Source of the DNA: a bacterium
Lineage (GTDB): Bacteria; Oederibacteriota; CAKKQC01
DNA length: 64,000 nt
Assembly (NCBI GenBank): GCA_919901855.1
Contig: CAKKQC010000032.1
Coordinates: 1-64,000, forward strand
Direction: 5' to 3'
The translations under genes and the position numbers were made by a program. Below are positions 4,961-62,375 of this stretch, piece by piece; within the stretch, counting starts at the first letter, position 1, and each line of letters opens with the position of its first letter. Below the pieces are notes generated by a model. The model was not told the DNA's origin. It saw only the letters and a program-made list of their open reading frames with translations, and did not search any database.

Positions 4961-4969
4961 TGGAGCCCT

Positions 4970-4998: not shown

Positions 4999-5026
4999 GG
5001 GCCCCCGCCTCCCGTTGGAGGTCCGG

Positions 5027-5614: not shown

Positions 5615-5707
5615 GCCTTCATCCTAGCGCCCGGGTCCCCGTGGCGGCAATGGCTCCCCAAGGTTGCAGTATGCGACCCTGAGGCCCGCCCTGCGTCCAC
5701 CCCCGGG

Positions 5708-46654: not shown

Positions 46655-47191
46655 ATGAGAAGTCACTGTCGAAACAGGCACGGACGATCACCCGAAGCGG
46701 GCGCGGCGCTCGTCGAGTTCGCGCTCGTCATTCCCCTATTTCTCGCCATGCTTTGGGGCCTCGTGACCCTCGTCGTGCTCGCGCGCTCCCGGCTCCAGGT
46801 CGCAATTGTCGCGCACGCGGTCGCGCGCGAGGCCCAGGCGGGCCAGCTCCCGCCGGAATCCCTGACCGCGCTCGCGAAGGCCTACGGCCGCGGCTGCGGG
46901 ATGGGCCGCGCCGCGGTGGACAGCCTCCGGGTCGAGGTCGGGAGCGGCGCCGGGGGCCTGGGCCTGGGGGGCGCGGGGCTGTTCGGCAGCGTGATCGGGA
47001 TGGCGTCCGGGTGGAACCGGCTCACGGTGCGGGCGCGGGTCCCGGTGCCGGACGCGCTGCGCCTGCTCACCGGACCCGCGGAGTTCCGGTCCGAGACGAC
47101 CTACGTGGCCGGAACCTGGAAGGCCCCGTGGACCCTGCTGAACGGACTGCTCAAGATGCCCGATCCCCGGGCCGAGAAGGGGAACCGGTGA
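46655..47191 (+). CDS. TadE-like pseudopilin
   Basis: A 178-residue protein with the TadE/TadG signature. A short basic start is followed by GAALVEFALVIPLFLAMLWG, where the Glu after the Ala/Gly stretch fits the prepilin-like processing site, and then one hydrophobic helix. The rest is a soluble periplasmic part. TadE-like pseudopilins assist Flp pilus assembly. It is first in an operon in which each stop overlaps the next start, giving tight translational coupling through to the secretin. Confidence 0.8.
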   Translation: MRSHCRNRHGRSPEAGAALVEFALVIPLFLAMLWGLVTLVVLARSRLQVAIVAHAVAREAQAGQLPPESLTALAKAYGRGCGMGRAAVDSLRVEVGSGAGGLGLGGAGLFGSVIGMASGWNRLTVRARVPVPDALRLLTGPAEFRSETTYVAGTWKAPWTLLNGLLKMPDPRAEKGNR

Positions 47192-47880
47192 TCCGGACGA
47201 TCGTCGTCCTCTCGTGCCTCGCGGGACGCGCCGCCGCCGGCGGCTGGCTCTCCACGCCGGACCTGCCCCGGGTGGAGGGGATGACCCGCGTCCTCGAAGG
47301 CACGGTGCGGATCAACCTCACGTCCGCCCGGTACGCGGTCTCGGCCGGCCCGTTGGCTGCGGTGGCACCAGCCTTCGAGGCGGCCGCGCGGGCGGCGGGG
47401 TGGGTGCCGGAGCAGGCGGGACGCCGCGTGTTCCCGGTGCCCGGAGGGGCGCTCGACCTGCGCGCGTACCGCGCGGGGACGCGATGGCTTCTCCAGGGCG
47501 TCACCGACGGCCGGCCGGGCGAGCCGGACTCGTGCTTCGCCGTGCAGGCGCTCTTCGACGGCGTGCCGCCCTGGGCGGACGGGGCGGGGGAGGCGCCGGG
47601 CCGCGACCCCGCCGGGTGGCCGCGGATTTCGTCCGCGCGCCGGCTCCTGCACCTCGGGGGCCGGGGATTCGAGGCCGCGTGCTACGCGACCTCCGCGCCC
47701 CCGAGCGGGGTGCTCGCCGAGGCCGCCCGGCGGCTGCCGGCCGCGGGTTGGCGGACGGAGCCGTTGGGGGCGGGCGGGCTGGCGGCCACCCGTGCCGGCC
47801 GGCCCGATACCGCGCTGTGGACCCGGCCCGACGGGACGGGGACCGTCTTCATTGTGATCGCGACGGAGGAGGTTCGATGA
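47188..47880 (+). CDS. exported protein of unknown function in the pilus operon
   Basis: A 230-residue protein starting at GTG in a GTGA overlap with the TadE-like gene. The start VIRTIVVLSCLAGRAAAGG looks like a signal peptide. Two similar halves are suggested by paired phrases: AAARAAGWVPEQAGRRVFPV near residue 65 and AARRLPAAGWRTEPLGAGGL near 190, each followed by a strand-rich piece. That would be an internal duplication. No known Tad component matches by eye. Its place between TadE and CpaB implies a periplasmic pilus role. Confidence 0.65.
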   Translation: MIRTIVVLSCLAGRAAAGGWLSTPDLPRVEGMTRVLEGTVRINLTSARYAVSAGPLAAVAPAFEAAARAAGWVPEQAGRRVFPVPGGALDLRAYRAGTRWLLQGVTDGRPGEPDSCFAVQALFDGVPPWADGAGEAPGRDPAGWPRISSARRLLHLGGRGFEAACYATSAPPSGVLAEAARRLPAAGWRTEPLGAGGLAATRAGRPDTALWTRPDGTGTVFIVIATEEVR

Positions 47881-48620
47881 ACAGCCGCATGACTCTGCTC
47901 GTCTCCGCGATCGCGGGCGTGCTGGCCGCGGTCTTCGCGTACGCCTGGTTCTCTTCGGCCGAGCGGTCGTTGCGCGAGATGTCGTCGCCCGCCCCGGTCC
48001 TGGTCGCCTCCCGGTACATCGCCAGCGGCGCCCGCGTGGACGCGTCCGCGGTCGAGGTGAAGGCCTTCCCGCGGGCGTTCATCCAGCCCGGAGCGCTGGC
48101 GGCCGTGAAGGACGCCGAAGGCCAGCTCGCGCTGGCGCCGATCGCGGCGAGAGAACAACTCCTGGCGAACAAGCTCACGAAGGGCGGCGTCGCCCTCGCC
48201 CTCGCCGTGCCGCCCGGCAGGCGCGCGGTTACGGTGGCCGTGGATGCCGCGTCCGGGGTCGCGGGCCTGCTCAAGCCGGGCGACCTCGTGGACGTGGTGG
48301 TCACCGCCGACGAGGGCGGAGCCCCCAGGACGTCCGTCCTCATGCAGGCGGCGCCCGTCCTCGCGGTCGGGAAGACGTTCTCGGTCGAGCCGTCGCGGAA
48401 GGAGGAGGAGGGGTCGCTCCTCGGCGCGCAAGCGGACACGGTGACGCTCGCGGCCTCGCCGTTCGAAGCGACCCAGCTGGTGCATTTCGAGCTCGCGGGG
48501 CGCATCAAGCTGCTACTGCGCTCTCCGGGCGACGTCCAGCGGATTCCGCTGGCGCCCATATCGGGCCGGTCGGTCCGGGCCGCCCCGGCGGGAGACGACG
48601 AGGAGGTGAGGAAGCGATGA
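47877..48620 (+). CDS. cpaB: Flp pilus assembly protein CpaB/RcpC
   Basis: A 247-residue protein with an N-terminal membrane anchor (MTLLVSAIAGVLAAVFAYAW). A SAF domain follows (LVASRYIASGARVDASAVEV), then the RcpC/CpaB core (AVTVAVDAASGVAGLLKPGD, LVDVVVTADEGG). CpaB is a periplasmic protein thought to stabilise the outer-membrane secretin of the Tad pilus. It overlaps the secretin start by 4 bp, the canonical cpaB-cpaC order. Confidence 0.9.
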   Translation: MNSRMTLLVSAIAGVLAAVFAYAWFSSAERSLREMSSPAPVLVASRYIASGARVDASAVEVKAFPRAFIQPGALAAVKDAEGQLALAPIAAREQLLANKLTKGGVALALAVPPGRRAVTVAVDAASGVAGLLKPGDLVDVVVTADEGGAPRTSVLMQAAPVLAVGKTFSVEPSRKEEEGSLLGAQADTVTLAASPFEATQLVHFELAGRIKLLLRSPGDVQRIPLAPISGRSVRAAPAGDDEEVRKR

Positions 48621-49069
48621 GCATGTTCACGGTCGGACTCGCGGTGGTGTTGGCGGCGCTCCGGGGGCTTCCGGCCGCCGCGGAATCGCCGCCCGGCGGC
48701 GACCTGATCCAGGTGGATGTCCAGGTCCTGGAGATCAACAAGTCGAAACTCTACAAGGTCGGGCTCGACTGGGCGCGCCTGCTCGAGGGCGGGGCGGCGG
48801 GGGCCGCGTCCGCGGCCGCGGGAGGTCCGGTGAGTCCCGCCGAACTGGTCGAGGACGCTCCGCCGCCGCTCCGCAAGCTGGGGACGTTCTCGCGCGGGCA
48901 GGTCGACGCGTTCATGCGCCTGCTCGAGGGTAACAACTACGGGAGGCTGCTCGCCAAGCCCAAGCTGCTGACTGTGAGCGGCTCGCCCGCGACCTTCCTC
49001 GTCGGCGGCGAGATTCCCGTCGTCTCGCAGGACACGCAGGGCCATGGATGCGTGTCCTATCTGTCATGA
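48617..49069 (+). pseudogene. cpaC: secretin gene cpaC/rcpA, interrupted after its first part
   Basis: The reading frame starts with a signal peptide and secretin N-domain-like sequence (LIQVDVQVLEINKSKLYKVG). It reaches the secretin core hallmark LLAKPKLLTVSGSPATFLVG and GGEIPVVSQDTQGH, then ends 8 codons later at a stop. A normal secretin of this type would run for several hundred more residues through the membrane-gate region. The break coincides with the sharp GC drop and a serine recombinase gene. The gene has been split by integration. The missing 3' part should lie at the far end of the element. Confidence 0.88.
49029..49058. other. candidate attachment-site junction (attL or attR half)
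   Basis: AGGACACGCA (49029-49038) and its perfect reverse complement TGCGTGTCCT (49049-49058) flank a 10-base centre. The left arm is secretin coding sequence and the right arm is element sequence, so the dyad centre (49043/49044) marks the likely crossover. Serine-integrase sites are imperfect inverted repeats around a central dinucleotide, so this fits. In frame, VSY follows the junction, as secretins often have there, so the true boundary could lie up to about 49060. Confidence 0.65.
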
Positions 49070-49078
49070 TCTTTCTCC

Positions 49079-50530
49079 TTATGTGACAGTCTTCCCTGGC
49101 AGGTAGTTCAACTCAAACGTGATTCCGTCCTTCTCAACAACTATCTGTTCAACGATGGCCTCTGCAATCTGTCGCTTTTCCTCCGAGGTCAGTTCCGGCC
49201 ACCGACCATAGAGGTCCCGGGCTTCGTTGAGAATCTGGTCGCTGGACTGGAACCTGACACGGAGAAAGTCAATCTCACCTTGCAGACTGGGCATTTCGTT
49301 CCTGATCTGCCGATACCGCTCATCCATCGGCTTGTACCTTTCCCCGAATCCTTCCTTTGGGAGCTGCCCATCCATGTAGAGGCTGACCAACTTGTCCATA
49401 CCAGCCTTAACCTTTGCGCTCTCACTCTCAAGGTTATCCAGCAGCTCTTCCTTCTCTTTCAGTTGCTGGTCGGCCTGGGTCAGATGCTCAGCGACTTCCT
49501 CCTTGCAGAGAACGAAATCCCGTATCTTGGTGTGAAAGACACTATCCAAGTCTTGAATGGTGATCTTGTTCCGACAACCAGACCGGAAGCAGACATACTT
49601 CGGTGTGTTCGAAGGAACATACATCTTGCTTCCGCAATGGCACACTACCAGCCCAGTGAATACATGCACAGGCTTCCGGCCAGGCCTTCTACCGCTCTCT
49701 CGTCGCCCACTCAGAAGCGCGTTGCACTGGCTCCAAACATCGACGCTGACAATCGGATCCACTTCCGTCAGAATCCATTCCTCGGGGGGCTTGTCTTCCC
49801 AGCCATCAGGCTTGGAGTAGTTGGCGCGGCGGAGTCCTTTCGCCGAAGGATCCTTGATAAGCCGCTCAACCGTGGTCGAGCTCCAGGCGGCTCGGTTCCT
49901 CGTGCGGTGCCCTTGCTCATTGAGCAGTCTGGCAACGGTCTTGAGACGACCGTGCTGCAGGAAGAGCTCGTAGATGAGTCTTCGAACCGGAGCTTCTGCA
50001 GGATTGACTACTAGCTTCTTGTCCTTCCACATGTACCCATAGGGCCCCTTGCCACCAAGGGGTTTTCCCATCTTGGCCCTGACCACAACGGAAGCTGCGA
50101 CCCGTGAAGCGATCTCTTCCCGTTCCCATTGAGCCAGGGCCGCAATCATGGTGTAGAAGAGGCGTCCGGCAGGCGTCGATGTGTCGATGGATTCCTGAAG
50201 AGAGACGAGATCGGCACCGTACTTCTTGAAGAGGTCCGCGAAATCAAGGAGTTCCCGAGTGTTTCGAGCAAGGCGAGCGAGTTTGGAGAAGATCAGTCCG
50301 GTGATGTGGCCACGTTCAATATCCTTGATCATCCGCTGAGCTTCCGGATGCGCCATCACGGACTTCCCACTCACGGCCTCAAGGTGATAGACCTCTTGCA
50401 CCTTCCACTGCTTGAACTCCGCATAGTACCGAGCTCGTTTCTCGTGGTGCTCGGGACTATCCCCTCGGGCCTGGTCTTCGGTAGAGACCCGAATCCAGAT
50501 GCCTACTGCCTTCGGAACCTCTGTACCAAT
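49079..50530 (-). CDS. large serine recombinase (integrase)
   Basis: A resolvase/invertase-type large serine recombinase. The catalytic Ser is in IWIRVSTEDQ. The conserved ISKLARLARNTRELLDFADL and QWEREEIASRVAASV follow, then the recombinase domain (PYGYMWKDKKLVVNPAEAPV), a Cys4 zinc ribbon (VCHCGSKMY...CFRSGC) and a long coiled coil before the C-terminus. The first in-frame ATG (50401) lies after the catalytic Ser and cannot be the real start. Upstream the frame is open back to 50536 with no ATG, GTG or TTG. An ATT at 50530 has AAGGAG 7 bases before it and gives 483 residues with Ser16. Otherwise a one-base frameshift near the start must be assumed. Next to the junction, it is the likely integrase. 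Confidence 0.88.
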   Translation of the reverse strand: MGTEVPKAVGIWIRVSTEDQARGDSPEHHEKRARYYAEFKQWKVQEVYHLEAVSGKSVMAHPEAQRMIKDIERGHITGLIFSKLARLARNTRELLDFADLFKKYGADLVSLQESIDTSTPAGRLFYTMIAALAQWEREEIASRVAASVVVRAKMGKPLGGKGPYGYMWKDKKLVVNPAEAPVRRLIYELFLQHGRLKTVARLLNEQGHRTRNRAAWSSTTVERLIKDPSAKGLRRANYSKPDGWEDKPPEEWILTEVDPIVSVDVWSQCNALLSGRRESGRRPGRKPVHVFTGLVVCHCGSKMYVPSNTPKYVCFRSGCRNKITIQDLDSVFHTKIRDFVLCKEEVAEHLTQADQQLKEKEELLDNLESESAKVKAGMDKLVSLYMDGQLPKEGFGERYKPMDERYRQIRNEMPSLQGEIDFLRVRFQSSDQILNEARDLYGRWPELTSEEKRQIAEAIVEQIVVEKDGITFELNYLPGKTVT

Positions 50531-50549
50531 GGCATTTCTCCTTAGTCAT

Positions 50550-50578
50550 ACGATACGTGAGCGCTCACGTATTGTCAA
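50550..50578 (-). promoter_or_regulatory. serine-recombinase promoter with embedded 20-bp palindromic operator
   Basis: On the minus strand TTGACA (50573-50578), 17 bp, then TATCGT (50550-50555). The 20-bp perfect palindrome ATACGTGAGCGCTCACGTAT (50553-50572) fills the whole spacer and touches both hexamers. A dimeric repressor bound there would block polymerase directly. The SD AAGGAG follows within 14 bases, so the leader is very short. Confidence 0.72.
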
Positions 50579-50742
50579 GCTGTCTCGCACTTCTTTGCCT
50601 TTCTCCACCGGACCATCACGGCATGCCGAGCGCTATCCTCTCTCTGCTGTGGAGTAAGCTTCTTCGCCCTGGCCTTCCCCCCCTTGAGTCCTCCAAGACG
50701 GCCGAGGGCCACTGCGGCTGGGTTCTTCTCACGTTTGGGCAT
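50575..50742 (-). CDS. 55-residue basic protein of the KGGKARA type
   Basis: A small gene on the minus strand. The protein starts MPKREKNPAAVALGRLGG, continues with LKGGKARAKKLTPQQRED, and ends with a second basic helix (HAVMVRWRKAKK). Very similar short basic proteins of unknown function (NPAAVALGRLGG...KGGKARA) occur widely in bacterial genomes and on mobile DNA. It lies directly upstream of the recombinase, and its TGA stop overlaps the recombinase -35 hexamer. A promoter (TTGAAT-17-TAAGAT) ends 6 bp before its ATG, which predicts an almost leaderless mRNA. It could be DNA-binding and a regulator of the palindrome, but that is inference. Confidence 0.72.
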   Translation of the reverse strand: MPKREKNPAAVALGRLGGLKGGKARAKKLTPQQREDSARHAVMVRWRKAKKCETA

Positions 50743-50748
50743 TCTGAA

Positions 50749-50777
50749 ATCTTAAGTCTCTATAGCGGGACATTCAA
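50749..50777 (-). promoter_or_regulatory. promoter of the 55-residue protein gene
   Basis: TTGAAT (50772-50777), a 17-bp spacer, and TAAGAT (50749-50754) on the minus strand. Transcription would start at or next to the ATG at 50742, so the mRNA would be leaderless or nearly so. No ribosome-binding site is visible. Confidence 0.5.
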
Positions 50778-50800
50778 GATCACGTTCTCTTGAAGGTGGA

Positions 50801-50880
50801 GCGGAGGCCCTCCGCAACGCCCGTCGCCCGAGAATGGACTGTCACCTTTGCCCCACTCGAACTGCCTGGGCCACGCCCAG
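50801..50880 (-). terminator. pair of hairpins downstream of the 50931-52724 unit
   Basis: GCGGAGG-C-CCTCCGC (50801-50815) and CTGGGC-CAC-GCCCAG (50866-50880) are perfect inverted repeats in the gap after the 180-residue gene. They lie where transcription of that minus-strand unit should end. They have no marked U-run. Confidence 0.4.
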
Positions 50881-50930
50881 CCGGAGACAACCCCCATCTC
50901 AAGCTCAGGTCCTAAGCCGAGCTTCTCTTG

Positions 50931-51473
50931 CTAGAACTCAACCTCGAGACTCGCATAGCCGTGGGGTCCGAAGTCATGAACGATGAACTGACCGAAACGT
51001 AACATGAGTGCGTTGCCAAGGATGATCGGCAGCAACTTCGTCTCTTCCTGAATCAGTTGAACGATGCAATCCACAGACGGAGTTTCGGGAGCCCGCTCTT
51101 CATTAAGCTTCGGCACGCCGATGATGGCAATGCGCTGCTCAGCAAGCTGGCAAGTCAGACTTCTGTTGCCCATAGGCACTTTCGTTAGGTGCTCGTAGTC
51201 ATCCACGGAGTGCGCCTTGATCCTTGCCTCCAACTTCTCGCTGCGTACAATGGCGTGGTTACCGCCATTCCGAAACCAGATGTGTCTCGGCACAAGAACA
51301 TGATCAAAGTGCAATGTCACCAGTCCAATCTCAGGTTCAAGATCTCCGATCTTAACATCTGCGTATACGCGGGTGGCCCGCCGTCGCGTGGTACTTTTCA
51401 AGGCGTCCTGGATGGGTTGGGAGAAGTATTCTCCAGCAGGCGGCATCAATCGGAGCACGCGATCGGTGGGCAT
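50931..51473 (-). CDS. protein of unknown function (possible degenerate retropepsin-like fold)
   Basis: A 180-residue protein with no recognised family. It starts immediately after the stop of the 416-residue gene, so the two are certainly coupled. The ending LPIILGNALMLRFGQFIVHDFG resembles the C-terminal strand-helix of clan AA (retropepsin-like) aspartic proteases. TRVYADVKIGDLEPEIGLVT could be their first strands. The catalytic Asp-Thr/Ser-Gly is absent: the expected place reads LHFDHVLVP. At most this is a non-catalytic relative, and the resemblance is weak. Confidence 0.55.
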   Translation of the reverse strand: MPTDRVLRLMPPAGEYFSQPIQDALKSTTRRRATRVYADVKIGDLEPEIGLVTLHFDHVLVPRHIWFRNGGNHAIVRSEKLEARIKAHSVDDYEHLTKVPMGNRSLTCQLAEQRIAIIGVPKLNEERAPETPSVDCIVQLIQEETKLLPIILGNALMLRFGQFIVHDFGPHGYASLEVEF

Positions 51474-52724
51474 TCAGTCAGAAGCAGGGAGGATGCCAGG
51501 AAGAAACTTGATGTAAAGATCCTCCGTGCGGAGACCAGCGATCGACAATGTTTCCCGCGTCTTGCTGTGTGCGATTAAGCCGCTGCCATTGACAGCAACC
51601 CACTTGCCACGAAACTCCTCACTAAGCCTGGGATAGTGATTCATCAAGTACGAGCGGCCCCTAAGAAAAGAACTGCTCTTCTTCGCACACCACGTTGCTT
51701 CTGCATCTTTAGGTGGAGTGGATTCCGCGGTCTTTCCCTCAAGAGAACTCTCTGTGCCCCTCCTCCGAATCAGATCCAGAGTCGATTCTGCATCATTGAA
51801 TCTGCTATCTAGCACATTCATGACTCTCATTCCGTTCTCTCGTTCCTCGGCAGTTTCCCTTCGTGGACGTCCATAGTCGAATAGAACCAACGATGCAATG
51901 TCAGCATCTGGAAACAGCATCTTCAAGTGCTGTTGAACGAATGAAATCACTCGACGCGACCCAAGCAGATCATAGAGCAAGAGCAGTCGCCTTGGTGGCC
52001 TCCCGGGGGGCTGCTCAATTGTGTTGTTCCTGCTCTCATCTACGAAGAAGTGATCCACGTTCCAAGACTTAAGAAGGTCCTCCCTGATTTGGATTGGTCC
52101 CACGCTTCCCGAATGCTTCCTGAAGAAACAGAGCGCATCCGGCCCGTAGGCTGAAATCTTATGAGCGAAGCTATCAACAAGCCACTTTCGAGAATCGTGA
52201 TCAACGAACCAATGGTTCCACGTCAGGAGCATCGGGTGCTCGAGGGAATCTGCAACAACAAACGCATTACCCTCCTCTGCAATCGCACAGTGGCATATCG
52301 TTGAACGACCATTGTTCTCTCGAAACACCCAGTGCTTTTTGTCAGCGTGAACGAGGTCTTGCGCCGTGAGCCGATATCTCAAGAAGATTCCACTAATGTC
52401 GAAAAGACTCGCGTAATCCCGTCGATGAAGGTAGGTGTTCAGTACCGACGTGATCTCATCAAGACACGCGCGGAGTTGCTTGATTGGGACCTCATACTTC
52501 TCCTGGAGTGTCCTTCTTGCTCGATCCACTTCCGACCAGAGCACAGAGCAGAACTTCGTATCAAGGTCTGGGCCCGACCTCTCTTGTTCATAGGACGATC
52601 TTGGGTTCCACTCATTCGTGAACTGCCAAAGGTACTCTCTCCGGCGTGACCGCTCGCGCCTAAGATCTACACAAAGGCTCTCAAGCACTTTTCCCGGAGG
52701 CTGCGTTCCCTCTTCTGATGCCAT
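51474..52724 (-). CDS. unknown protein with DUF5678-like C-terminus
   Basis: A 416-residue soluble protein. The last 50 residues (FRGKWVAVNGSGLIAHSKT, then IAGLRTEDLYIKFLP) match the pattern of DUF5678, a short strand-rich domain of unknown function. The middle (WLVDSFAHKISAYGPDALCF, then RRLLLLYDLLGSRRVISFV) vaguely follows the order of a phosphoribosyltransferase fold, but the PRPP-binding acidic pair and TG are not conserved. The N-terminal 130 residues are helical. A possible extended -10 (TGGTATACT) lies about 65 bp upstream. I cannot assign a function. It forms a two-gene unit with the 180-residue protein. Confidence 0.6.
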   Translation of the reverse strand: MASEEGTQPPGKVLESLCVDLRRERSRRREYLWQFTNEWNPRSSYEQERSGPDLDTKFCSVLWSEVDRARRTLQEKYEVPIKQLRACLDEITSVLNTYLHRRDYASLFDISGIFLRYRLTAQDLVHADKKHWVFRENNGRSTICHCAIAEEGNAFVVADSLEHPMLLTWNHWFVDHDSRKWLVDSFAHKISAYGPDALCFFRKHSGSVGPIQIREDLLKSWNVDHFFVDESRNNTIEQPPGRPPRRLLLLYDLLGSRRVISFVQQHLKMLFPDADIASLVLFDYGRPRRETAEERENGMRVMNVLDSRFNDAESTLDLIRRRGTESSLEGKTAESTPPKDAEATWCAKKSSSFLRGRSYLMNHYPRLSEEFRGKWVAVNGSGLIAHSKTRETLSIAGLRTEDLYIKFLPGILPASD

Positions 52725-52849
52725 AGCTCATAGCCCTCTGAGCAAGTGAGTCTCGACTGGGTGGCCTAGATTCCGCATGACAAGTCGAGAGTATACCAGA
52801 ACCGCCCGGTTCACCTCGTCGGGGAGCCACCTATGCGCATAGCATCCAG

Positions 52850-53068
52850 TCACGATTGCACCACCCTATTGCGCTTTTTTGATCGGACGAACCGTTTGAT
52901 CTCCTTCCCCTTGATTCGAACCTGAGACCGCATCGGCGAAACCTTGACCCATCTTGAACGAAGATGGCCCCTCGGAAGTTCAAGGTATCTGAGAACCTGT
53001 CGGTAGCTTACTCCCAAAAGACCCGCAGTTTCGGAAATCGTGTAGTCCCTTGTGTCTTTGATAGTCAT
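52850..53068 (-). CDS. small helix-turn-helix (excisionase/MerR-like) protein
   Basis: A 72-residue DNA-binding protein. DYTISETAGLLGVSYRQVLR is a typical MerR/excisionase winged-helix start. The wing (RWVKVSPMRSQVRIKGKEIK) and a basic tail (RFVRSKKRNR) follow. The frame is open further upstream, but I start at the ATG at 53068, which has AAGGA 8 bp before it and begins at the domain. Two tandem 10-bp repeats lie 36-55 bp upstream as a likely autoregulatory site. In an element with two recombinases, a recombination directionality factor or element repressor is the best guess. Confidence 0.75.
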   Translation of the reverse strand: MTIKDTRDYTISETAGLLGVSYRQVLRYLELPRGHLRSRWVKVSPMRSQVRIKGKEIKRFVRSKKRNRVVQS

Positions 53069-53103
53069 AGGTATGATCCTTGCTAGCCGAGCATATTGTC
53101 GTA

Positions 53104-53123
53104 TGGCGTCATGTGACGTCATG
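53104..53123. promoter_or_regulatory. tandem 10-bp repeats upstream of the HTH gene
   Basis: TGGCGTCATG directly followed by TGACGTCATG, nine of ten positions identical. The TGACGTCA core is itself palindromic. Position 36-55 bp before the start codon suits an operator for the small HTH protein or a binding site in recombination. Confidence 0.5.
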
Positions 53124-53352
53124 TTACAGCACTTAGCGCCACTTGTCAAATATCGTGAAGGCTTATTAGATTTTCTGACTCCGGTGTAGTGATGAAGCGC
53201 TGTCGACCGCACTGTAGCATCTCAGGGGCAGTATGCTGCCCTCCATACACGGTCAGACTATGAATGGCTCAGACTCATCTCAACTCCGAAAGAATTAAGA
53301 GGACCACATCTGGACTACAATCCTTAAGAACTCATGGGGGTTGATAGATAAC

Positions 53353-53664
53353 ATGATGCACGAAGTTCAGAGAGTTGACACGAGATATACAGGCGCGATC
53401 AAAGGGGTTCAAACGAGATCCCGCCATCTTCGCCTAACCATCGCCGAAGACGAAACAATCAAGAGGAATGCACACGACCAGAACTTCCAGAATGTATCAG
53501 GTTACATGCGATACTCCGCGCTGGAGAAGTCGCCCACGCTCCTCGAAAAGGTTGCCGAACTGACCACTCTGGTTCACCGGTCGTACGACCTGCTGCTAAT
53601 CATCTCGCAGAATGTACCAATCCAAGATGTCCAGTTGGGAAGGAATTCTAAACAGCCTCATTGA
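53353..53664 (+). CDS. MobC/NikA-like ribbon-helix-helix protein
   Basis: About 103 residues (an in-frame TTG at 53341 would add four). SRHLRLTIAEDETIKRNAHD followed by QNFQNVSGYMRYSALEKSP is the strand-helix-helix pattern of relaxosome accessory proteins (MobC/NikA type, xRLTxxExxxI...SxYxRxxAL). The C-terminal half is helical (LLEKVAELTTLVHRSYDLLL), as in MobC proteins. These bind the transfer origin beside a relaxase. No relaxase gene is in the window, so it may be supplied from outside, or the protein may only regulate. Confidence 0.65.
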   Translation: MMHEVQRVDTRYTGAIKGVQTRSRHLRLTIAEDETIKRNAHDQNFQNVSGYMRYSALEKSPTLLEKVAELTTLVHRSYDLLLIISQNVPIQDVQLGRNSKQPH

Positions 53665-53913
53665 GCAAGCAATCGCCATGAAGGATGCACCCCAAGAAAG
53701 CGCAAACCGAAAGGCATAAATAGGGGCACCTTACTTCTAAAAACTATATGGTGGCACTTCAGTCAGCTATAGCTTGGGAGGGAAGTTCTCATCAAGGCCG
53801 GTCTTCACTGCGTAGTGGCGAATACTCTACGATTTGTGGCCCCTCCGGCCAGGGCGTTCAGCTTCTCGTAGAGTGTCTAGCAATACGCCCAGGTCCACAT
53901 CCGACCTACAAGC

Positions 53914-53920
53914 TATATAT
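53914..53920 (+). promoter_or_regulatory. TATA-like box upstream of the tyrosine recombinase
   Basis: TATATAT, exactly 23 bases before the ATG at 53944, with no -35-like hexamer 16-18 bp further upstream. A GGAG lies 9 bp before the ATG. The geometry matches an archaeal leaderless promoter. Confidence 0.45.
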
Positions 53921-53943
53921 GGCTGGCCACCGGAGAGAACTAC

Positions 53944-55212
53944 ATGGCCAATGATATACATGCGTATGATCACCAACTGGAAATGCTGGTGAGTCGAATC
54001 AAGACTTCTGAGCTGTCCGAGGAGAACAAGAAACTGCTCCTCGACTATGACCGATCGATGCTCCTTGTGGAAGGGCTCGGAAAGCCGAGGCGTCTCCGTC
54101 TCTTGAGCCTCATCTTCCTGACAACGACGACCTACTTCCGAAAAGAGCTTCGGACCGTAACTGTTGACGACATCAAGGACTGCCTGAGAGCCATCGAGGA
54201 TCGAAAGGTCTCTCCATGGACAGTCTCGCTCTACAAGGTTTCCATCAAGAAGTTCTTCAGGTGGCTCACCTATGGAGACATGGTCAGCCAAACCACAGAG
54301 GTTCCTCCGCTCGTCAGCTGGATCAAGATTCATGTCAAGAAGAAGAACCAGCCGAGAGTGCAAGCCTCAGCAATCCTTACCGAGGACGAGGTCCACAGGC
54401 TCATCGCTGCTGCCCAGCTTCCTCGTGACCGCGCCTTCGTCTCGATGCTGTATGAACTGGGAGCGAGAATCGGAGAGATAGGTGGCCTTAGGATAGGGGA
54501 CATCTCGCGGGACGACTACACGTTTCTCATCGACATATCAGGAAAGACAGGACACCGCACTCCCCGTATCGTCATGTCAGATCCCTATCTTGCAGAGTGG
54601 CTGAACCATCACCCTCTCAAGAATGACCCATCAGCCCCCCTCTGGCCTTGCGTGGATCGCAGGGGCGGGTTCAAGCCCATGGACTATGGCGCGTTCCATG
54701 CCCTCGTCTTGCGTCTCAAGCAGAAAGCCGACATCACGAAGCGCCTCTATCCCCATCTCTTTAGGCACACCAGAGTCACTCATGTCCTGGCGAAGCGCCT
54801 CATGAACGAGGCCCAGGCCAAGGTCTATTTCGGATGGACCCCTGACAGCAAGATGCTATCGGACTACGCGCATCTTGTTTCCCAGGATGTCAACGAGGCG
54901 ATCCTCGAGATGCATGGCATCAAGATGGCGAAGAACAGCGAGAAGGAGATCGCAAGAACTTGCCCTCGGTGCCACCGCATAAACACTCCCGAAGCGAAGT
55001 TCTGCGTCCAGTGCAGTTTCATTCTTGATCCGACCGTAGCGTTTCAGCAGGGCCTACAGCGTTCGAGAACCGACCAGCTCCTCACGACGCTTCTTGAGGA
55101 CAAACGCATCCAGCAGCTCGTATTGGAGAAGCTCATGGAGCTGGACCGAGCCAAACTCCAGGAACTCCTCGGAGATGCCAAGGGGGACACAAGTGGGCTA
55201 CAAGGGATATAA
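53944..55212 (+). CDS. tyrosine recombinase (integrase) with C-terminal zinc ribbon
   Basis: A 422-residue phage-integrase/XerD-like enzyme. The N-terminal SAM-like DNA-binding domain spans about residues 15-120. The catalytic core has Arg175 (YELGARIGEIGGLR), Lys201 (ISGKTGHRTPR), His271-x-x-Arg274 (HLFRHTRVTH), Trp298 in the second His position (YFGWTPDS) and the nucleophile Tyr308 (LSDYAHL). All are present, so it should be active. A Cys4 zinc ribbon follows (Cys340, 343, 354, 357), then a coiled coil. Integrases with this CPxCxxxN...FCxxC tail are, to my knowledge, mainly archaeal. It is inside the element, not at the visible end. Confidence 0.9.
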   Translation: MANDIHAYDHQLEMLVSRIKTSELSEENKKLLLDYDRSMLLVEGLGKPRRLRLLSLIFLTTTTYFRKELRTVTVDDIKDCLRAIEDRKVSPWTVSLYKVSIKKFFRWLTYGDMVSQTTEVPPLVSWIKIHVKKKNQPRVQASAILTEDEVHRLIAAAQLPRDRAFVSMLYELGARIGEIGGLRIGDISRDDYTFLIDISGKTGHRTPRIVMSDPYLAEWLNHHPLKNDPSAPLWPCVDRRGGFKPMDYGAFHALVLRLKQKADITKRLYPHLFRHTRVTHVLAKRLMNEAQAKVYFGWTPDSKMLSDYAHLVSQDVNEAILEMHGIKMAKNSEKEIARTCPRCHRINTPEAKFCVQCSFILDPTVAFQQGLQRSRTDQLLTTLLEDKRIQQLVLEKLMELDRAKLQELLGDAKGDTSGLQGI

Positions 55213-55213
55213 A
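55207..55213 (+). promoter_or_regulatory. TATA-like box upstream of the membrane/coiled-coil gene
   Basis: ATATAAA, 22 bases before the ATG at 55236 and overlapping the last codons of the integrase. No Shine-Dalgarno sequence precedes that ATG, and no -35 is visible. This is consistent with leaderless transcription. Confidence 0.45.
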
Positions 55214-55235
55214 CCCAGTCATCTGCAGTAACTGC

Positions 55236-56360
55236 ATGGTGTTTCAGACATTCCTGTCCTACAACGCGTTCGACTCGCTCAAGTATCTCGACCTTTCCGG
55301 CATCTACGCGCAGTACTCCTCGCTCATCGACCTTACGCTCTACTTCATTATCTTTCTCGGGCTCTCCAAGTTCGTGTTCGATAAGAGGTTCCCAGGCAGG
55401 GGAGGGAAGGCCATCACAATCGGAGTCGGCGCAGTGCTGGCAGTTAGCCTTGCTGTCGCTGAGGGCCGCCTTGGGTTCAACCTCCAATCTTTCAGTCCCA
55501 TCGCCGGGCTCATCGTGATTCTCGCTGTTGGCTTCGTTCTCTATGCGCTCTGGCGCGGAATGGGTACGCCGGTCTGGATCTCAATCCTCATCTCCCTCGT
55601 AGTCATGTATTTCGGAGTGGGCTCTGTAACTCCTGCTTTCCTCGTCTGGGTTGGCGCCCACATCCCGCTGCTATATGTCGCCGTCGTTCTCGCTATCGTC
55701 GTCCTTGTCATTGCAGGACTCTTCTCCCTCATGGACCACATTGAGGGGAGCAAGCTCAGTCACTATTTGGACCCCGCCCCTGGATGGGAGAGAGACCCCC
55801 GAGCGAAGCAAGACGTCCTCAGGGAGGAGGAATCTATGCTTGCCCTCGAACAACGGGTAGGCGGAGAAGTAGCCCACGGCCTCAAGGAATCCTATTTGCA
55901 GCTCGCAAGGCATGGAGCAAAGCCCGTTCTTGCAGAGAGGATCCAATCAGCAGTAATAGATGCCCAAGACAAAGAGCACCTGCTCATGCAGAAGCTGGAC
56001 TATTTAGACACGGTCAACAAGAAACTGAAGGCGTTTGACCTAGGCCTCTTCCACAATCTCACGCGGGAGTACACCCGCCTTACAGCAGCACAACAACCGA
56101 AGATGCGCAAATTCATCGAGCGGGAACGGTCAAGGTTCTTCGAAGAAGCAGACATCGAAGATCTTGCTTCCAAGGCGAAGGCGGCTCTTGCCGAATATCA
56201 AGCCACGCTCCAGAGAGCAGCTGACGAGCTTCACAAGAACAATGCCCCCAAGGCCACCGAATGGCTCAAGAGAGCTGTCGATCTTGAGGAAGTCGTCAAC
56301 CGCATGCTCCGAAAGCTCCAGGGCAGGGAGCACCAGCTCCGCAAGCTCATCAAGGCATAA
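55236..56360 (+). CDS. polytopic membrane protein with C-terminal coiled coil, unknown function
   Basis: A 374-residue protein I do not recognise. The first 170 residues contain five or six hydrophobic helices, for example LTLYFIIFLGLSKFVF, AITIGVGAVLAVSLAVA, AGLIVILAVGFVLYALW, VWISILISLVVMYFGVG and VAVVLAIVVLVIAGLFSL. After about residue 185 it is charged and helical, with coiled-coil stretches (ESYLQLARHGAKPVLAERIQ, MRKFIERERSRFFEEADIE). It resembles membrane-anchored scaffold proteins of mobile elements. It is followed 28 bp later by a small gene with a very strong ribosome-binding site. Confidence 0.7.
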   Translation: MVFQTFLSYNAFDSLKYLDLSGIYAQYSSLIDLTLYFIIFLGLSKFVFDKRFPGRGGKAITIGVGAVLAVSLAVAEGRLGFNLQSFSPIAGLIVILAVGFVLYALWRGMGTPVWISILISLVVMYFGVGSVTPAFLVWVGAHIPLLYVAVVLAIVVLVIAGLFSLMDHIEGSKLSHYLDPAPGWERDPRAKQDVLREEESMLALEQRVGGEVAHGLKESYLQLARHGAKPVLAERIQSAVIDAQDKEHLLMQKLDYLDTVNKKLKAFDLGLFHNLTREYTRLTAAQQPKMRKFIERERSRFFEEADIEDLASKAKAALAEYQATLQRAADELHKNNAPKATEWLKRAVDLEEVVNRMLRKLQGREHQLRKLIKA

Positions 56361-56388
56361 TCACAACAACCAAAGGAGGTGAATAACA

Positions 56389-56664
56389 ATGGACAAACCA
56401 GTAGCATCTTTCAGAGCCGGCCTCATGCAGGCGGCAGTCTTCGTAAACACACGAAAGACCAAGAATGGGGAAGTTAAGATCCCCTCAGCGAGTTTCTCGA
56501 AGAGGTATCTCGAAGACGGGGAGTGGAAATCTACAACCACCCTCGACAAGAACGACATTCCGAAGGCAATACTCGTTTTGACGAAGGCCTACGACTACAT
56601 CACGACTACCTACCACGCTGACCGCAGCGAGGAGCCAGAGGAGTCAGACGCCGAGGCAGCCTAG
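56389..56664 (+). CDS. small strand-rich protein of a family common on mobile elements
   Basis: A 91-residue protein. The pattern FRAGLMQAAVFVNTRKTKNG, FSKRYLEDGEWKSTTTLDKN and DIPKAILVLTKAYDYI is one I have seen in many short proteins from plasmids and uncultivated genomes: a beta-rich N-terminus then one helix. The shape suggests single-strand nucleic-acid binding, but no function is established. The tail is acidic (EEPEESDAEAA). The AAAGGAGGTGA ribosome-binding site 9 bp before the ATG is a perfect anti-SD match, implying high expression. Confidence 0.65.
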   Translation: MDKPVASFRAGLMQAAVFVNTRKTKNGEVKIPSASFSKRYLEDGEWKSTTTLDKNDIPKAILVLTKAYDYITTTYHADRSEEPEESDAEAA

Positions 56665-56752
56665 GAACTGAACCATTCGCCCAACTTGTGACACAGCCAT
56701 CACGGCTGGCGATACCGTTCGGCCACAGCTTAGCCCAGGCCCCAACGACTCT

Positions 56753-56777
56753 GTGCCCCCTGACCTAACAGGGGCAC
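56753..56777 (+). terminator. hairpin downstream of the 91-residue gene
   Basis: GTGCCCC(C)TG - ACCTAA - CAGGGGCAC, a nine-bp stem with one bulged C and a six-base loop, 88 bp after the stop at 56664. There is no U-run. It may terminate the plus-strand unit or be part of the structured region that follows. Confidence 0.4.
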
Positions 56778-57013
56778 GAGGAGTGGCGGCCGGTTCTCAC
56801 AGACCTAAGGATTATGAGTTGTGAATTCGCTCGAAATCCTTACACCACCGCCCATCAAAACCCTTTCTCCGTGATCTTTCCCCAAGGATTGTGACGCTCA
56901 CGTCCACCGTAGGAACTCACAAACCACAATCCACACCTAGCATTGCTACACCACTTACACCTAATCAAACCTACCCCTCTGCTGCCGCACCCCGCGCGCG
57001 CACTTAACTCGTC

Positions 57014-57077
57014 GGGGGGCCCGCAGGCCCCCCTGGGGTTAAATACTCAGTCCGCAGACTGACCAGACAACCGTCTG
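57014..57077. repeat. three tandem tetraloop hairpins
   Basis: GGGGGGCC-CGCA-GGCCCCCC (57014-57033, with TTAAC/GTTAA outer arms), CAGTC-CGCA-GACTG (57048-57061) and CAGAC-AACC-GTCTG (57064-57077). All have perfect stems and four-base loops, and two share the loop CGCA. Such clustering in 64 bp is unlikely by chance. It fits a nick site or origin, a recombination site, or a structured RNA. Confidence 0.65.
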
Positions 57078-57467
57078 TCCGCTCTTCACTGCCATCATTC
57101 ATCTCGCAGTTTCCAGAAATCATCCTTTTCTGCTCTTCTCGGTCTTCTCTTCTCGATACGTCCACTACCCGTCGCCCACAAGTCGCCAGAGGCCCCAGAG
57201 CGCCATTGCTCAATCTGTAGAAGAACCGCCAGCTGCACTCGCTGCTCACCTGGCACATCCTCAGAACCCTCTGAGAACCTTCGACCCCTCGACCCGGCCA
57301 CCAGCCACTGACTGCCATTCAACCAGCCGGAGCGAAAGCCTTACTGAGACCCGCCTGCTGTGCCTACGGCACCTTTTCACGGGCGGGGATAGCTATGGGT
57401 TTCGCTCATCGAATGATCTGGACCATCAAGCTAAGCGTGGCCTCACGAAATGGGATTCCAGAAAGTG

Positions 57468-59633
57468 CTAACTCAGTTGCTTGACGTCCCGGTACAGCTT
57501 CCGCAGGTGTTCATCAGACATGTCTAGAATCGGCTCGTACATGAAGGCGTTCAAGTGAATGTTCTCCGGCGTCATCAGCATTACCCGCTCTATCACGTCG
57601 ATGGCTTCCTGTTTGGAGGCGGTCCTTTCCCTGAACAACTTGAACAACTCGTATGTCTGCTTGCTTGAAATAGCCTCGACTGCCGCAGGATCCGCGATCT
57701 TGCCGATCATGTATCTCTCCGCCGTCAGCCTGATGGCGATCGACAGAACGACCTTGTTCTCTAGATTCGGGGTATCGGCAGCCTGCAAGCAGGCATCGGC
57801 TTCACCGAAGATTACTTCGACCATCGGCTTTGTGCCATCGAGACAACTGCCGGCTTGGCCGAACACCGTCCGAAAAACATTCGCCAAGTCATCCTGTGTT
57901 ATCGTTCCGGAGTCCCCCTTCCAGTGCAAGAGCGATGTCAGCTTCTTGTACTCGGGGTCGTTCTCGCCCTTTGTGTACTCCACGATGTTCCGAATGAACG
58001 GAATCGACGCCACTCTCTTTCTCGCATCAGTGAAGAAGTGCGGCTTCCAACCCTCAACGAAGATGTTCCGTATGCCCTCGGCTCTGTTAATGCTGAGTCC
58101 ACTATCCGTCTTTGACGCCATCAAGCACTGCGAGTACTTAACGAACCGGCTTTGGATGGTTCGGAAGAAGTCGAAGTTGTGTGTGAGAATCACCTGGTAG
58201 AAGTGCGGGTCTTCAGCCATTTCCTTGAGATACTCCACAATGGCGTACTTGTTCTTGTAGTCGAAAGAATCCGCGATGTCATCAACAATGAACAGCGTTT
58301 CCTGGTTCGCCTGTCTTCTTGCCTCGACCTCGAAGATGATGTTCAGAATATAGAGAGCCTTCTTCTCGCCCGTGCTCAGCACCCGCATGAGCTCGTCCCT
58401 CTCAAGCGTGGCGGATTCTGACCCATCTTCAAACCTGAACCCCAAGCTGAGAAGGGGCTCCTGCGCCAGGATCACAGCTACACGATTCTGCGGAACGAGC
58501 CTGAACGGAACATGGAATCGGCCATTGAACAGCTCAATGACTCTCTCCCACTGTGTCCGTTCCTTTGCCGCCTCGGCTTCGATTTCCACCTTCCGCTTCT
58601 CGGCCGCGTGTAACTTCGCGACGAGGTCGTTGTACAAATCAATCTTCAGGAAGAAATAGGACCTCCAGAGTTCCTCTCGAAACGCCTCGACATTGGCAAG
58701 GGCAGGGATTATCTTCTCGTTCTCAGACAGATAGTTGCTGAAATCACGAACGGTCGCATTCTTGGTGATCTGCTTGTCAATCGCCGCAAATCTCTTCCTC
58801 AACTCTGCGCTCTTGAGAATCTGGTTCTTCTCGTCCTCAATCACTTTCTCCAGCTCAACCTGGCTTGAGATCTCCTTCTTAGTCGGGGCATTCAGTGTCA
58901 CGGAATGCTTCGCTTCAAAGAAGCCGTTGTCGGCGAGCTGTTTGGCAATAGTGGCCGCGTTGTAGAAGTTGAAGACACCCTTCTTGAAGTATGTGGATGC
59001 GGCGAGAAGTTCGTTGTATTTCTCGATGTATTCCTTTATGGCCGTCCTAACGTCGCCGGTCTTAAGGAAGGCCTGGATCCTGTCATCGAAGATCTCGTCA
59101 TATCCGATGCCCGAGTAGGGCGCAGACTTCTGATCTCTCATCTCCTTCTCAACCCTGAAGATGGCTTTGTCGAATTCCCTATCGCTTTTGGTGAAGGCTG
59201 AAGATATCTCCTTCTCGATGTCCCTCTTCGAACCAGACACTTCCTTCATGGCGTTCAGGAAAACCTTCTTGGCTGCTTCGATTCCTGCGTGCAACTCTTC
59301 GTATTCTTTTCTCAATGGGGCGTTCACAAGCAGAGTCGACGTCTTCTCCGTGTGACCGAGCACCTCGTCATAAGGTCTGACAACGAAGACCCGCTCCTTG
59401 GGGAGCTCAGTTCCGGATTCGTCAGTAATCACTCTGGTGCAGGTTCGTCCTGGAAAGACTCGATCTTTCGACGGCACCGCTTGCGTCAGGTCAAAGAAGG
59501 TGTTTGCCAGCGAGCTCTTCATCGAACCGTTCGCGGCGTAGATCGCAACGACGTTGTGAGTGGAGAAGTCGAACTCGTATTTCAGTTTCCTGATGCCGTA
59601 GCAGTTCTGCAGATCAATCTTCAAGGTCTTCAT
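57468..59633 (-). CDS. ABC/SMC-type AAA ATPase, probable defence protein
   Basis: A 721-residue ATPase of the AAA_13/RloC-PrrC-like type. Walker A is a variant, YAANGSMKSSLANTF (Lys39), in which Met replaces the usual Gly before Lys. A central coiled-coil region spans about residues 105-360. The ABC signature is LSTGEKKALYIL (419-430), Walker B LFIVDDIADSFD (Asp451-Asp452) and the switch His THNFDFF (485). The C-terminal 230 residues are helical and unassigned. No HEPN or anticodon-nuclease motif is obvious. Related ATPases occur in phage-defence islands. It is the last gene of a minus-strand cluster, after a 160-bp gap. Confidence 0.78.
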   Translation of the reverse strand: MKTLKIDLQNCYGIRKLKYEFDFSTHNVVAIYAANGSMKSSLANTFFDLTQAVPSKDRVFPGRTCTRVITDESGTELPKERVFVVRPYDEVLGHTEKTSTLLVNAPLRKEYEELHAGIEAAKKVFLNAMKEVSGSKRDIEKEISSAFTKSDREFDKAIFRVEKEMRDQKSAPYSGIGYDEIFDDRIQAFLKTGDVRTAIKEYIEKYNELLAASTYFKKGVFNFYNAATIAKQLADNGFFEAKHSVTLNAPTKKEISSQVELEKVIEDEKNQILKSAELRKRFAAIDKQITKNATVRDFSNYLSENEKIIPALANVEAFREELWRSYFFLKIDLYNDLVAKLHAAEKRKVEIEAEAAKERTQWERVIELFNGRFHVPFRLVPQNRVAVILAQEPLLSLGFRFEDGSESATLERDELMRVLSTGEKKALYILNIIFEVEARRQANQETLFIVDDIADSFDYKNKYAIVEYLKEMAEDPHFYQVILTHNFDFFRTIQSRFVKYSQCLMASKTDSGLSINRAEGIRNIFVEGWKPHFFTDARKRVASIPFIRNIVEYTKGENDPEYKKLTSLLHWKGDSGTITQDDLANVFRTVFGQAGSCLDGTKPMVEVIFGEADACLQAADTPNLENKVVLSIAIRLTAERYMIGKIADPAAVEAISSKQTYELFKLFRERTASKQEAIDVIERVMLMTPENIHLNAFMYEPILDMSDEHLRKLYRDVKQLS

Positions 59634-59793
59634 TTAGTCATCCCCGTGCGTGAGAAGTGTTGTGTAGTCCTTCTTATTAAACCTAGCGCCGATGCTCGCT
59701 CATTACTTCTTCGGCTTCGGCATTATACCCCGGCGAGTCGAGAGCTTGACTCGCAGTCGTCCGTCCCTCCGGTCTCTTCTGGCGAGTGGCTTC

Positions 59794-60447
59794 TCAGACG
59801 GATTTCCCGACCTTCCCGCGAAGTGGGGAAGACACGGCACTCGCCTTCATGAGGCGCTCTTCCTCCTTGCTGATAACTCTGACTTCGGTCTTCAGCTTTC
59901 CGTTGGTGTTCTGCCAGCCAAGATACACGCCTTTTCGATCAACGTACGAGTACCAGATTTCCACACGTTCCGGCCCGGATCCGATCTTCTTCTTGCAGAT
60001 ATCTCTCTGAAGCTTCCTGACCGCCCGTTTCATCTTGTCGAGAAAGATCTCGATCGACCGAGGATCTCTCCAGAAGCAGACTCCTCCCAGCTTCACCTTC
60101 CCCTCGGTACAAGAAATCCAAATACTTCCGCCGTCGCCCTTCTTGTATCTGCCAGAAAGCTTTGCACGAGCAACAGGAGCGGCGAAAAAGGCCAGCAACT
60201 TCTTCTTGGCCCACCTGTAAGCATCATCACCAATCCCTTCGAGGAAGCCGGAGAGGATGAGTAGGGTAGCGAACTGCAATCCAGTCTGAAGATCGATTCC
60301 TCGAAGACCTGAGCTCGTGCTGCCGACGGTCTTCCCGAACCGATTCAGGAGCTTCGCAACTCCTTCCGCGTCTTTCTTGGTGTATGCCCCAGTAGGCCAA
60401 AGATCGAAGCGTATCTCCGGGGGTGATGCGGCTCCCTGGGCCGTCAC
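59794..60447 (-). CDS. unknown protein upstream of the ATPase
   Basis: A 217-residue protein I do not recognise. It starts at GTG in a GTGA overlap with the preceding 78-residue gene. Residues 10-45 look like a strand-helix unit (IRFDLWPTGAYTKKDAEGVA, KLLNRFG). An amphipathic or membrane-associating helix follows near 55-85 (LQFATLLILSGFLEGIGDDA). The basic C-terminal half is strand-rich (RVEIWYSYVDRKGVYLGWQN). Small proteins with this strand-helix-hydrophobic-helix layout are found in conflict systems as adaptors or effectors. That is only an analogy. Confidence 0.6.
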   Translation of the reverse strand: MTAQGAASPPEIRFDLWPTGAYTKKDAEGVAKLLNRFGKTVGSTSSGLRGIDLQTGLQFATLLILSGFLEGIGDDAYRWAKKKLLAFFAAPVARAKLSGRYKKGDGGSIWISCTEGKVKLGGVCFWRDPRSIEIFLDKMKRAVRKLQRDICKKKIGSGPERVEIWYSYVDRKGVYLGWQNTNGKLKTEVRVISKEEERLMKASAVSSPLRGKVGKSV

Positions 60448-60680
60448 GCCTCAACTCCAGCACCAGAGTCTCGCTCCAGATTGTCAGCAACGTTCCTGAG
60501 CATCTTGGCCATCACGCTCCCGACAACAGTCAGCCCACCTCGCGATTCATCAACGACAACATGGACCCCATTACCTTCCGGGCCATCCAGCACGACCAAG
60601 ATCAACCCAGATGCCCGAAGCTCCCTGAGTAGCTTCTTCGCCTCTTCTTCATACCGCCCACCCGGCATTCCGGTAGCCAT
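60444..60680 (-). CDS. 78-residue unknown protein of the cluster
   Basis: A short alpha/beta protein. GGRYEEEAKKLLRELRASGL forms a helix. LILVVLDGPEGNGVHVVVDE forms two strands. VGSVMAKMLRNVADNLERD forms a final helix. I start at the ATG at 60680, preceded by AAGGGGG, rather than an earlier in-frame ATG at 60716. Its stop overlaps the GTG of the next gene, so the pair must be translated together. I recall similar small proteins in bacterial genomes but know no function. Confidence 0.6.
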   Translation of the reverse strand: MATGMPGGRYEEEAKKLLRELRASGLILVVLDGPEGNGVHVVVDESRGGLTVVGSVMAKMLRNVADNLERDSGAGVEA

Positions 60681-60732
60681 CAGAACCCCCTTAGCATCGG
60701 ACTTCGCGCATCGCATCGGCCTACGAAATAGT

Positions 60733-61218
60733 CTACTTCTTGGCCTGATTCTCCCCGGTCGTTGCTTTCCGGAACTCAGCCTTCACCCGATTCCCAGTGA
60801 CATGAAAGACACCGCCTACTGCCCGCAGATTGAAAGAGTGCGCGAACATGTCCGCACCCTTGGCATTGACTCTCTCTTCGAGGGTCCGGTCGCCCTCGAC
60901 GGTTCTCTCGAACAGGGCTACTGCATCCACCAATCCATCGAGTAGATCCTCTATCACAAAGCAGTAAGCTGTCTCCCTATCCATCTTCCATGGAATCCAG
61001 CTTTCCTTCCTATCCCGCGTCTCGTAGTAGATCGGCACCGCCTTGTTGCGCCGAGTCTTGTCGGACCTCGATGAATGCTCGTGCAGCACTCCGCACCTAG
61101 CCGACCAGAGGTCCTCCTTCGTTAGCTTCGCAGGAGCCGAGGGTTTGTCCTTCAGGACGGGCAGAAGATACCGGTCAACCCAGTTCTCGAATATCGTGTG
61201 GTTCGCTCCCTCACTCAT
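60733..61218 (-). CDS. unknown protein of the cluster, true N-terminus uncertain
   Basis: A protein of 161 residues from the first ATG. The frame stays open 20 more codons upstream (to a CTG at 61278), and those codons read like a real helix (GIALIYVAIDTLAHLE) fitting a conserved start. No ATG, GTG or TTG is available there. An out-of-frame ATG lies at 61297, so either a rare start codon or a one-base frameshift must be assumed. Features are FENWVDRYLLPVL, LWSARCGVLHEHSSRSDKTR and FVIEDLLDGLVDAVALFER. The ARCGVLHE-type segment looks like a conserved functional site. Function unknown. Confidence 0.58.
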   Translation of the reverse strand: MSEGANHTIFENWVDRYLLPVLKDKPSAPAKLTKEDLWSARCGVLHEHSSRSDKTRRNKAVPIYYETRDRKESWIPWKMDRETAYCFVIEDLLDGLVDAVALFERTVEGDRTLEERVNAKGADMFAHSFNLRAVGGVFHVTGNRVKAEFRKATTGENQAKK

Positions 61219-61375
61219 CTCAAGATGGGCAAGCGTATCAATCGCAACGTAGATCAGCGCAATGCCTGGAACAATCAGCGGCTCTGGTCCTTTTCATGCA
61301 TCGTGTGATTGCGGCCAGCAGTTGGCCGATACCACCTTTCACCTGCGGGATTAGCATGCAGTCTCCATCTTCTTC

Positions 61376-61738: not shown

Positions 61739-61747
61739 TCAGAAACA

Positions 61748-62251: not shown

Positions 62252-62273
62252 CTCTTCAAAGAAAGCCCACCCC

Positions 62274-62281
62274 TATATATA
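62274..62281 (-). promoter_or_regulatory. TATA-like box upstream of the minus-strand cluster
   Basis: TATATATA 22 bases before the ATG at 62251, preceded on that strand by CCGAAGGG (a possible BRE-like element). No bacterial -35 is found at the right distance. Same geometry as the boxes at 53914 and 55207. Confidence 0.5.
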
Positions 62282-62375
62282 CCCTTCGGCTCCATATAGC
62301 CCCCCCAGGCCATGAGAGTTTGTCAAACCCTTCTGCAGGCTTGAATCTGTTAGTTGATGGTAGCATCATCTGAGA

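Follow-up and report, generated by a model that had tools for sequence, protein, structure and literature searches.

A Tad secretin gene split by an integrative element whose large serine recombinase groups with comM-inserted relatives

Is a Tad-pilus secretin gene that is interrupted by an integrative element held in reserve as a switch, or is it broken? The question is raised by a locus in the window, i.e. the whole stretch of DNA analyzed here (bases 1-64,000 of the 74,587-bp contig C32), which belongs to a 4.68-Mb, metagenome-style draft genome with 91 contigs and a completeness of 93.46%. A first-pass annotation held that an integrative element had split the secretin gene next to a serine recombinase, and that precise excision could restore the gene and so switch pilus assembly on. 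The precedent was the comK prophages of Listeria (A118-type, with a serine integrase). In these, a serine recombinase element likewise splits a gene for a surface or uptake apparatus or its regulator, and precise excision restores the gene. The host side of the locus was delineated as follows.

46655..47191, plus strand: TadE-like gene of the host Tad locus (Pfam TadE, 1.2e-6).
47877..48620, plus strand: cpaB/rcpC of the host Tad locus (TIGR03177, 3.6e-44; Pfam RcpC, 8.8e-25).
48617..49044, plus strand: 5' fragment of the Tad secretin gene (rcpA/cpaC-like), native through the His codon of QDTQGH and 67% identical to the intact orthologue in the same-family genome G001 (contig C405).

The cpaB and TadE-like genes thus lie upstream of the secretin fragment. 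The open reading frame (ORF) that contains the fragment (48617-49069, plus strand, 150 aa) comprises secretin residues 1-143, ending in GGEIPVVSQDTQGH, plus seven residues that the element supplies before the stop codon. This early stop had been remarked upon in the first-pass annotation, as had a fall in GC content at the same place; both were confirmed. The GC fraction changes from 0.725 (48-49 kb) to 0.55 (49-50 kb) across the junction and lies between 0.49 and 0.63 from there to the end of C32 at 74,587. The fragment covers only positions 2-40 of the Pfam Secretin profile (E-value of 5e-5, a match below the curated cut-off). Because the gene is cut before most of the secretin domain, the 143-residue product would not be expected to form a functional outer-membrane pore, and, judging from what is known of the family, Tad pilus assembly would be expected to be lost.

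The Pfam Secretin profile was also run against the whole genome. Matches were located at five places: two in C42, one in C6, the window fragment, and C79:62-337, which corresponds to profile positions 76-166. The secretin 3' half accordingly resides on another contig of the same genome, at C79:56-373, next to the contig start. C79 opens with 55 foreign bases; the secretin follows, starting at (R)THVRAEAS and running to its end, and after it comes a CpaE-CpaF fusion (370-2382), in which a MinD-like CpaE and a CpaF/TadA ATPase are encoded by a single ORF. In G001, the secretin gene is intact and uninterrupted, and the genes that flank the two halves on C32 and C79 sit on either side of it in identical order. 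Given this collinearity, the halves were taken to be parts of one gene. Between them, 72 bp of the G001 secretin have no counterpart (69 bp if the first codon on C79 is native). A pattern search of the genome for this middle piece did not find it; a single one-mismatch match lay elsewhere, on C40.

The annotated serine recombinase is indeed present at the junction. It does not begin there, as had been stated; the gene is on the minus strand and ends there, with its 3' end facing the junction and its stop codon (49079-49081) 22 bp away.

49079..50530, minus strand: large serine recombinase (LSR) of 483-484 aa (phrog_95 integrase, 9.9e-110, and the Pfam domains given below).

As is characteristic of LSRs, an N-terminal Resolvase catalytic domain (residues 11-156, 1.3e-32) is followed by a Recombinase domain (residues 177-276, 1e-18), and the length falls within about 400-650 aa. 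There is no in-frame ATG at the start; initiation would be at ATT or further upstream, and use of the GTG at 50401 would drop the N-terminal catalytic part. The closest curated NCBIfam models were CcrB (2.4e-38) and CcrC (5.7e-35) of the SCCmec Ccr recombinases and XisF (4e-34) of the cyanobacterial fdxN element. The respective scores of 132, 121, and 118 bits are far below the curated cut-offs of 900, 900, and 375 bits, which places the protein outside these families.

A scan of GTDB species genomes yielded 274 relatives of the recombinase, the best 80 of which were analyzed (52-64% identity; many bacterial phyla and two archaeal bins). The 58 genomes examined as relatives of the source genome yielded no close relative of the element, the closest recombinase in them being at most about 37% identical. 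Among viral contigs, 13 stretches matched the search pattern and none encodes a relative. Most of the best 80 of 274 share one target: 55 are inserted in comM (also yifB, a DNA-uptake gene that encodes a Mg-chelatase-like ATPase) at one codon position, seven carry an intact attP, 17 are elsewhere, and one is cut off by a contig end. The comM tally combines a motif search with tblastn; strict tblastn alone gave 48/80. The comM junction falls directly after the codons for A-M-N-P and before those for C-P-C-G, and it is the 3' end of the recombinase gene that adjoins it, as in the window. At 53 loci the recombinase is joined to the comM 5' half; at the other two (L077 and L122) it is joined to the 3' half, a reversed orientation that matches that of the window. 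The comM gene of the source genome itself is an uninterrupted ORF with an AAMNPCPCG site.

A quick tree was calculated from 80 rows (79 relatives and the window protein; L107 was too short and was left out). The window recombinase groups among comM-inserted relatives, although the window copy itself is in the secretin gene and not in comM. The nearest rows by path are L060, L058, L062, L057, and L064, four of which are in comM, with L058 having an intact attP. These neighbors, comM-inserted or attP-bearing, come from Elusimicrobia and one Patescibacteria bin. The branch of the window protein is long (0.42), and no strongly supported set in the tree holds it. Nearly identical recombinases can occupy different sites: in Spartobacteria bins, L119 is outside comM and L124 and L126 are in it. 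Judged by eye, the genes hit by relatives inserted elsewhere resemble those for endonuclease III (L118), a monofunctional transglycosylase (L116), and glycosyltransferases (L120 and L136).

Several loci had features of their own. L113 (Planctomycetota), which is near the window protein in the tree at an open fork, has a TG-type core and is apparently inside a radical-SAM-like gene (by eye). L073 has a full-length comM copy (4400-5917) beside the recombinase in addition to an interrupted comM half; this element possibly brings its own comM replacement. In L058, L089, L094, L096, and L098, an intact attP-like site is followed by an XRE-type helix-turn-helix (HTH) gene of the GDHI/GEHI..KKRLE type.

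The seven intact attP sites provided a description of the attachment site: 28 bp, consisting of 13 bp, a 2-bp core, and 13 bp, with 8-9 of 13 positions symmetric. The junction in the window has the same geometry.

49030..49057, no strand assigned: attL-like left junction, with a 13-bp host half (49030-49042), a proposed CA core (49043-49044), and a 13-bp element half (49045-49057).

The position of the core was inferred from the symmetry. Here, 9 of 13 positions are symmetric, and the outer 9 bp form a perfect inverted repeat, a level of identity reached at 18 of 502,743 background positions of the source genome (3.6e-5 per position). A short, imperfect inverted-repeat site with a 2-bp core thus adjoins the recombinase gene, as is usual for LSRs. 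The element half scored 8.4 bits against the family profile, where random sequence has its 95% point at 7.95 bits and its 99% point at 10.8 bits; the geometry is therefore given greater weight. The host half is native secretin, as comparison with the relative shows (GGACACGCAGGGGCAT in the relative; GGACACGCAGGGCCAT in the window). For the same reason, we discarded the notion of an intact attP, belonging to the element itself, at this junction.

With this site in hand, the claim that an integrative element splits the secretin was supported: the halves are at two contig ends, they are collinear with the intact relative, and the junction has attachment-site geometry. It is improbable that C32 is instead a chimera, made in assembly or binning, of a secretin 5' half and an unrelated element. 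The draft, metagenome-style nature of the genome and the abruptness of the GC step would fit such an artefact. However, homology to the relative breaks off precisely at the base where the join shows the junction anatomy of the recombinase family, and a separate interruption of the secretin 3' half is seen at another contig end.

The host half also resembles the comM 3' half-site. Thirty intact comM sites were used for this comparison (of 31 loci; one was unrecognized by the pattern and was omitted). The tests were designed after the resemblance had been seen, and the fractions that follow are thus nominal: in 0.50 Mb of the source genome, 188 of 45,868 positions with a CA core score as well (0.41%); once the right half from the relative is added, the fraction comes to 0.24% for the site of the relative itself and to 0.75% for the hybrid; 9 of 13 bases are shared with the host half of L077, a level reached at 0.12% of TG positions. 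For the right half of the presumed attB in the secretin, for which the sequence of the relative was used, the match to comM was poor (-19.75). Read in the direction of the recombinase, the proposed core is TG, whereas 48 of 49 comM junctions have CA. A change of core dinucleotide was considered as the cause of retargeting and rejected, as the relatives with TG-type cores, L077 and L122, are still in comM, in reversed orientation.

Taken together, the comM-type family of the recombinase, the attP-like geometry of the junction, the comM-like half-site, and the intact comM of the genome suggest that the insertion was probably a secondary-site event by an LSR that normally targets comM. The element's own LSR would have carried out the integration into the Tad secretin gene, using a site there that resembles a comM half-site, and 49030-49057 would be the attL-type hybrid left by that reaction. 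We regard it as likely, on the whole of the evidence, that an element of more than 25.5 kb entered the secretin gene in this manner; a switch restorable by excision is not supported. Besides the modest score of the element half, the poor fit of the right half to comM, the unlike core, and the nominal nature of the comM fractions, two observations weigh against this account: the right end of the element and the right attachment site (attR) were not found in the assembly, so that only the left junction is seen, and the element also encodes a tyrosine recombinase. The right end was sought by means of the half-site and of the HTH gene that adjoins the attP of relatives, and nothing convincing was found.

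The features of the element are listed below.

49045..64000, no strand assigned: low-GC interior of the integrative element, which continues to at least 74,587 of C32; the right end is unassembled.
52850..53212, minus strand: small HTH protein, a possible directionality factor (Pfam HTH_17, 1.3e-4, and Exc, 3.1e-4, both below cut-off; phrog_629 excisionase, 2.3e-4).
53341..53664, plus strand: weakly matched NikA-like mobilization protein (Pfam NikA-like, 3e-4, below cut-off).
53944..55212, plus strand: tyrosine recombinase with a C-terminal zinc ribbon (Pfam Phage_integrase, 7.3e-17; NF040815, 2e-24, below cut-off).
57468..59633, minus strand: candidate anti-phage defense ATPase PDC-S46 (PADLOC PDC-S46, 4.9e-275, match over the whole length).
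62376..63788, plus strand: fusion of prephenate dehydratase and Schlafen AlbA_2 (Pfam PDT, 2e-52; SLFN_AlbA_2, 1.4e-17).

Ten of the element proteins were scanned against PHROGs for virion structural genes such as a prophage would carry. The matches among these ten were to integration functions and metabolism-type families, together with a weak match of the HTH protein to a terminase small subunit (1.4e-4). The prephenate dehydratase-AlbA_2 fusion has a long match to viral family phrog_10727 (7.3e-24). When 22 element ORFs were compared to the 80 loci of the relatives, one ORF was matched, in one locus (L113). There is thus no shared backbone, and the recombinase travels on differing cargo. 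Contig C31 (8,100 bp, low-GC, same genome) has two stretches in common with the element, at 78% and 83% identity.

The presence of the tyrosine recombinase allows for a scheme in which it, or some other enzyme, moved the element and the serine recombinase was a passenger. A tRNA gene is a typical target of tyrosine recombinases, and in L082 and L130 a tRNA-like sequence (judged by eye) was observed just past the 3' end of the recombinase gene. At the window junction, in contrast, there is no tRNA target; the junction is also as close as 22 bp to the serine recombinase stop codon, and the 28-bp serine-recombinase geometry is kept. We consider it very unlikely that the serine recombinase was such a passenger.

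The far side of the split gene bears a second lesion. C79 begins at an insertion-sequence end: its first 55 bases are also the end of contig C66, and 53 of them have an 81% identical copy at C7:3108-3160, beside two genes for rve-domain transposases, so that this terminal sequence is present at three places in the genome. (Together with imperfect repeats at its termini, these two genes make up an insertion-sequence-like unit, C7:106-3160.) The secretin 3' half is thus joined to an insertion-sequence end and not to the serine-recombinase element. At the other end of the element-bearing contig, the last 55 bases of C32 are common to contig C69. Both contig pairs overlap by exactly 55 bases, which suggests that the assembler worked with a word length of 55 and broke off at repeats.

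A precise insertion between C32 and C79 was examined and rejected. A 7-bp ACACGCA at both edges looked like a core, but it is out of frame and would leave 23-24 codons missing, and the edge of C79 is an insertion-sequence end, not an element end. When the right end of C32 and the left end of C79 were aligned as terminal repeats, the score was 21 (200 shuffles gave a 95% point of 19 and a maximum of 22); the nine extra bases shared at the C32/C69 end argue against these two being the ends of one insertion sequence.

Because of the shared 55-bp ends (C79 with C66, and C32 with C69), several contig pairings are possible. An insertion-sequence-mediated rearrangement could thus be envisioned that set the 3' half beside some other region, the serine-recombinase element never having been directly between the halves. 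The gene order in the relative nonetheless puts both halves together ancestrally, and the left junction fits insertion by the serine recombinase with no need of a rearrangement; such a rearrangement was accorded little probability. Under the favored account of insertion by the LSR, the insertion sequence may have landed independently just to the right of attR. Alternatively, a deletion linked to the insertion sequence may have removed the right end of the element, attR, and the 69-72 bp.

These data bear directly on the proposed switch. In its favor are the serine recombinase at the junction, the excisionase-like small protein in the element, and the weak similarity of the recombinase to XisF. 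A switch, however, requires halves that can rejoin, and here 69-72 bp of secretin and attR are absent from the assembly and the 3' half abuts the insertion-sequence end. In contrast to comK in Listeria, then, the secretin halves as assembled do not join up again, and a second lesion is present. The left junction, moreover, was assembled without a break and with no sign of an empty-site branch. This reading of the contig structure argues against a large fraction of empty sites, not against rare excision. A reversible switch of the comK kind accordingly appears quite improbable, and neither the restoration of the gene nor the control of the pilus by the element, as advanced in the first-pass annotation, was borne out. 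A hybrid account would have a comM-type LSR that evolved a new address in the Tad secretin, with rare precise excision still switching the pilus on in cells free of the insertion sequence and with the missing 69-72 bp being an assembly gap; to this, too, we give only a slim chance. The secretin gene therefore looks broken rather than switchable.

The targeting of comM by LSRs is already known. The survey by Durrant et al. (2022; PMC10083194) includes LSR elements that target a magnesium-chelatase-like gene (comM/yifB), and 55 of the 80 relatives studied here likewise lie in comM, at one site. The likeness is one of target gene, and the window copy differs in residing in the Tad secretin, with comM intact. 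No paper that treats a Tad pilus secretin and a serine recombinase together was found in the open-licence literature, and, to the extent of that search, the Tad secretin appears to be a new target.

A gene split next to a recombinase does not in itself amount to a switch, and the present locus corrects the tempting reading that it does. The family of this recombinase keeps to a fixed codon position of comM across many phyla, yet here it is found in a gene for another cell-surface apparatus even though comM is free. The attP sites, the dozens of comM junctions, and the relatives inserted elsewhere constitute concrete sequences with which to ask how a serine integrase changes its target.
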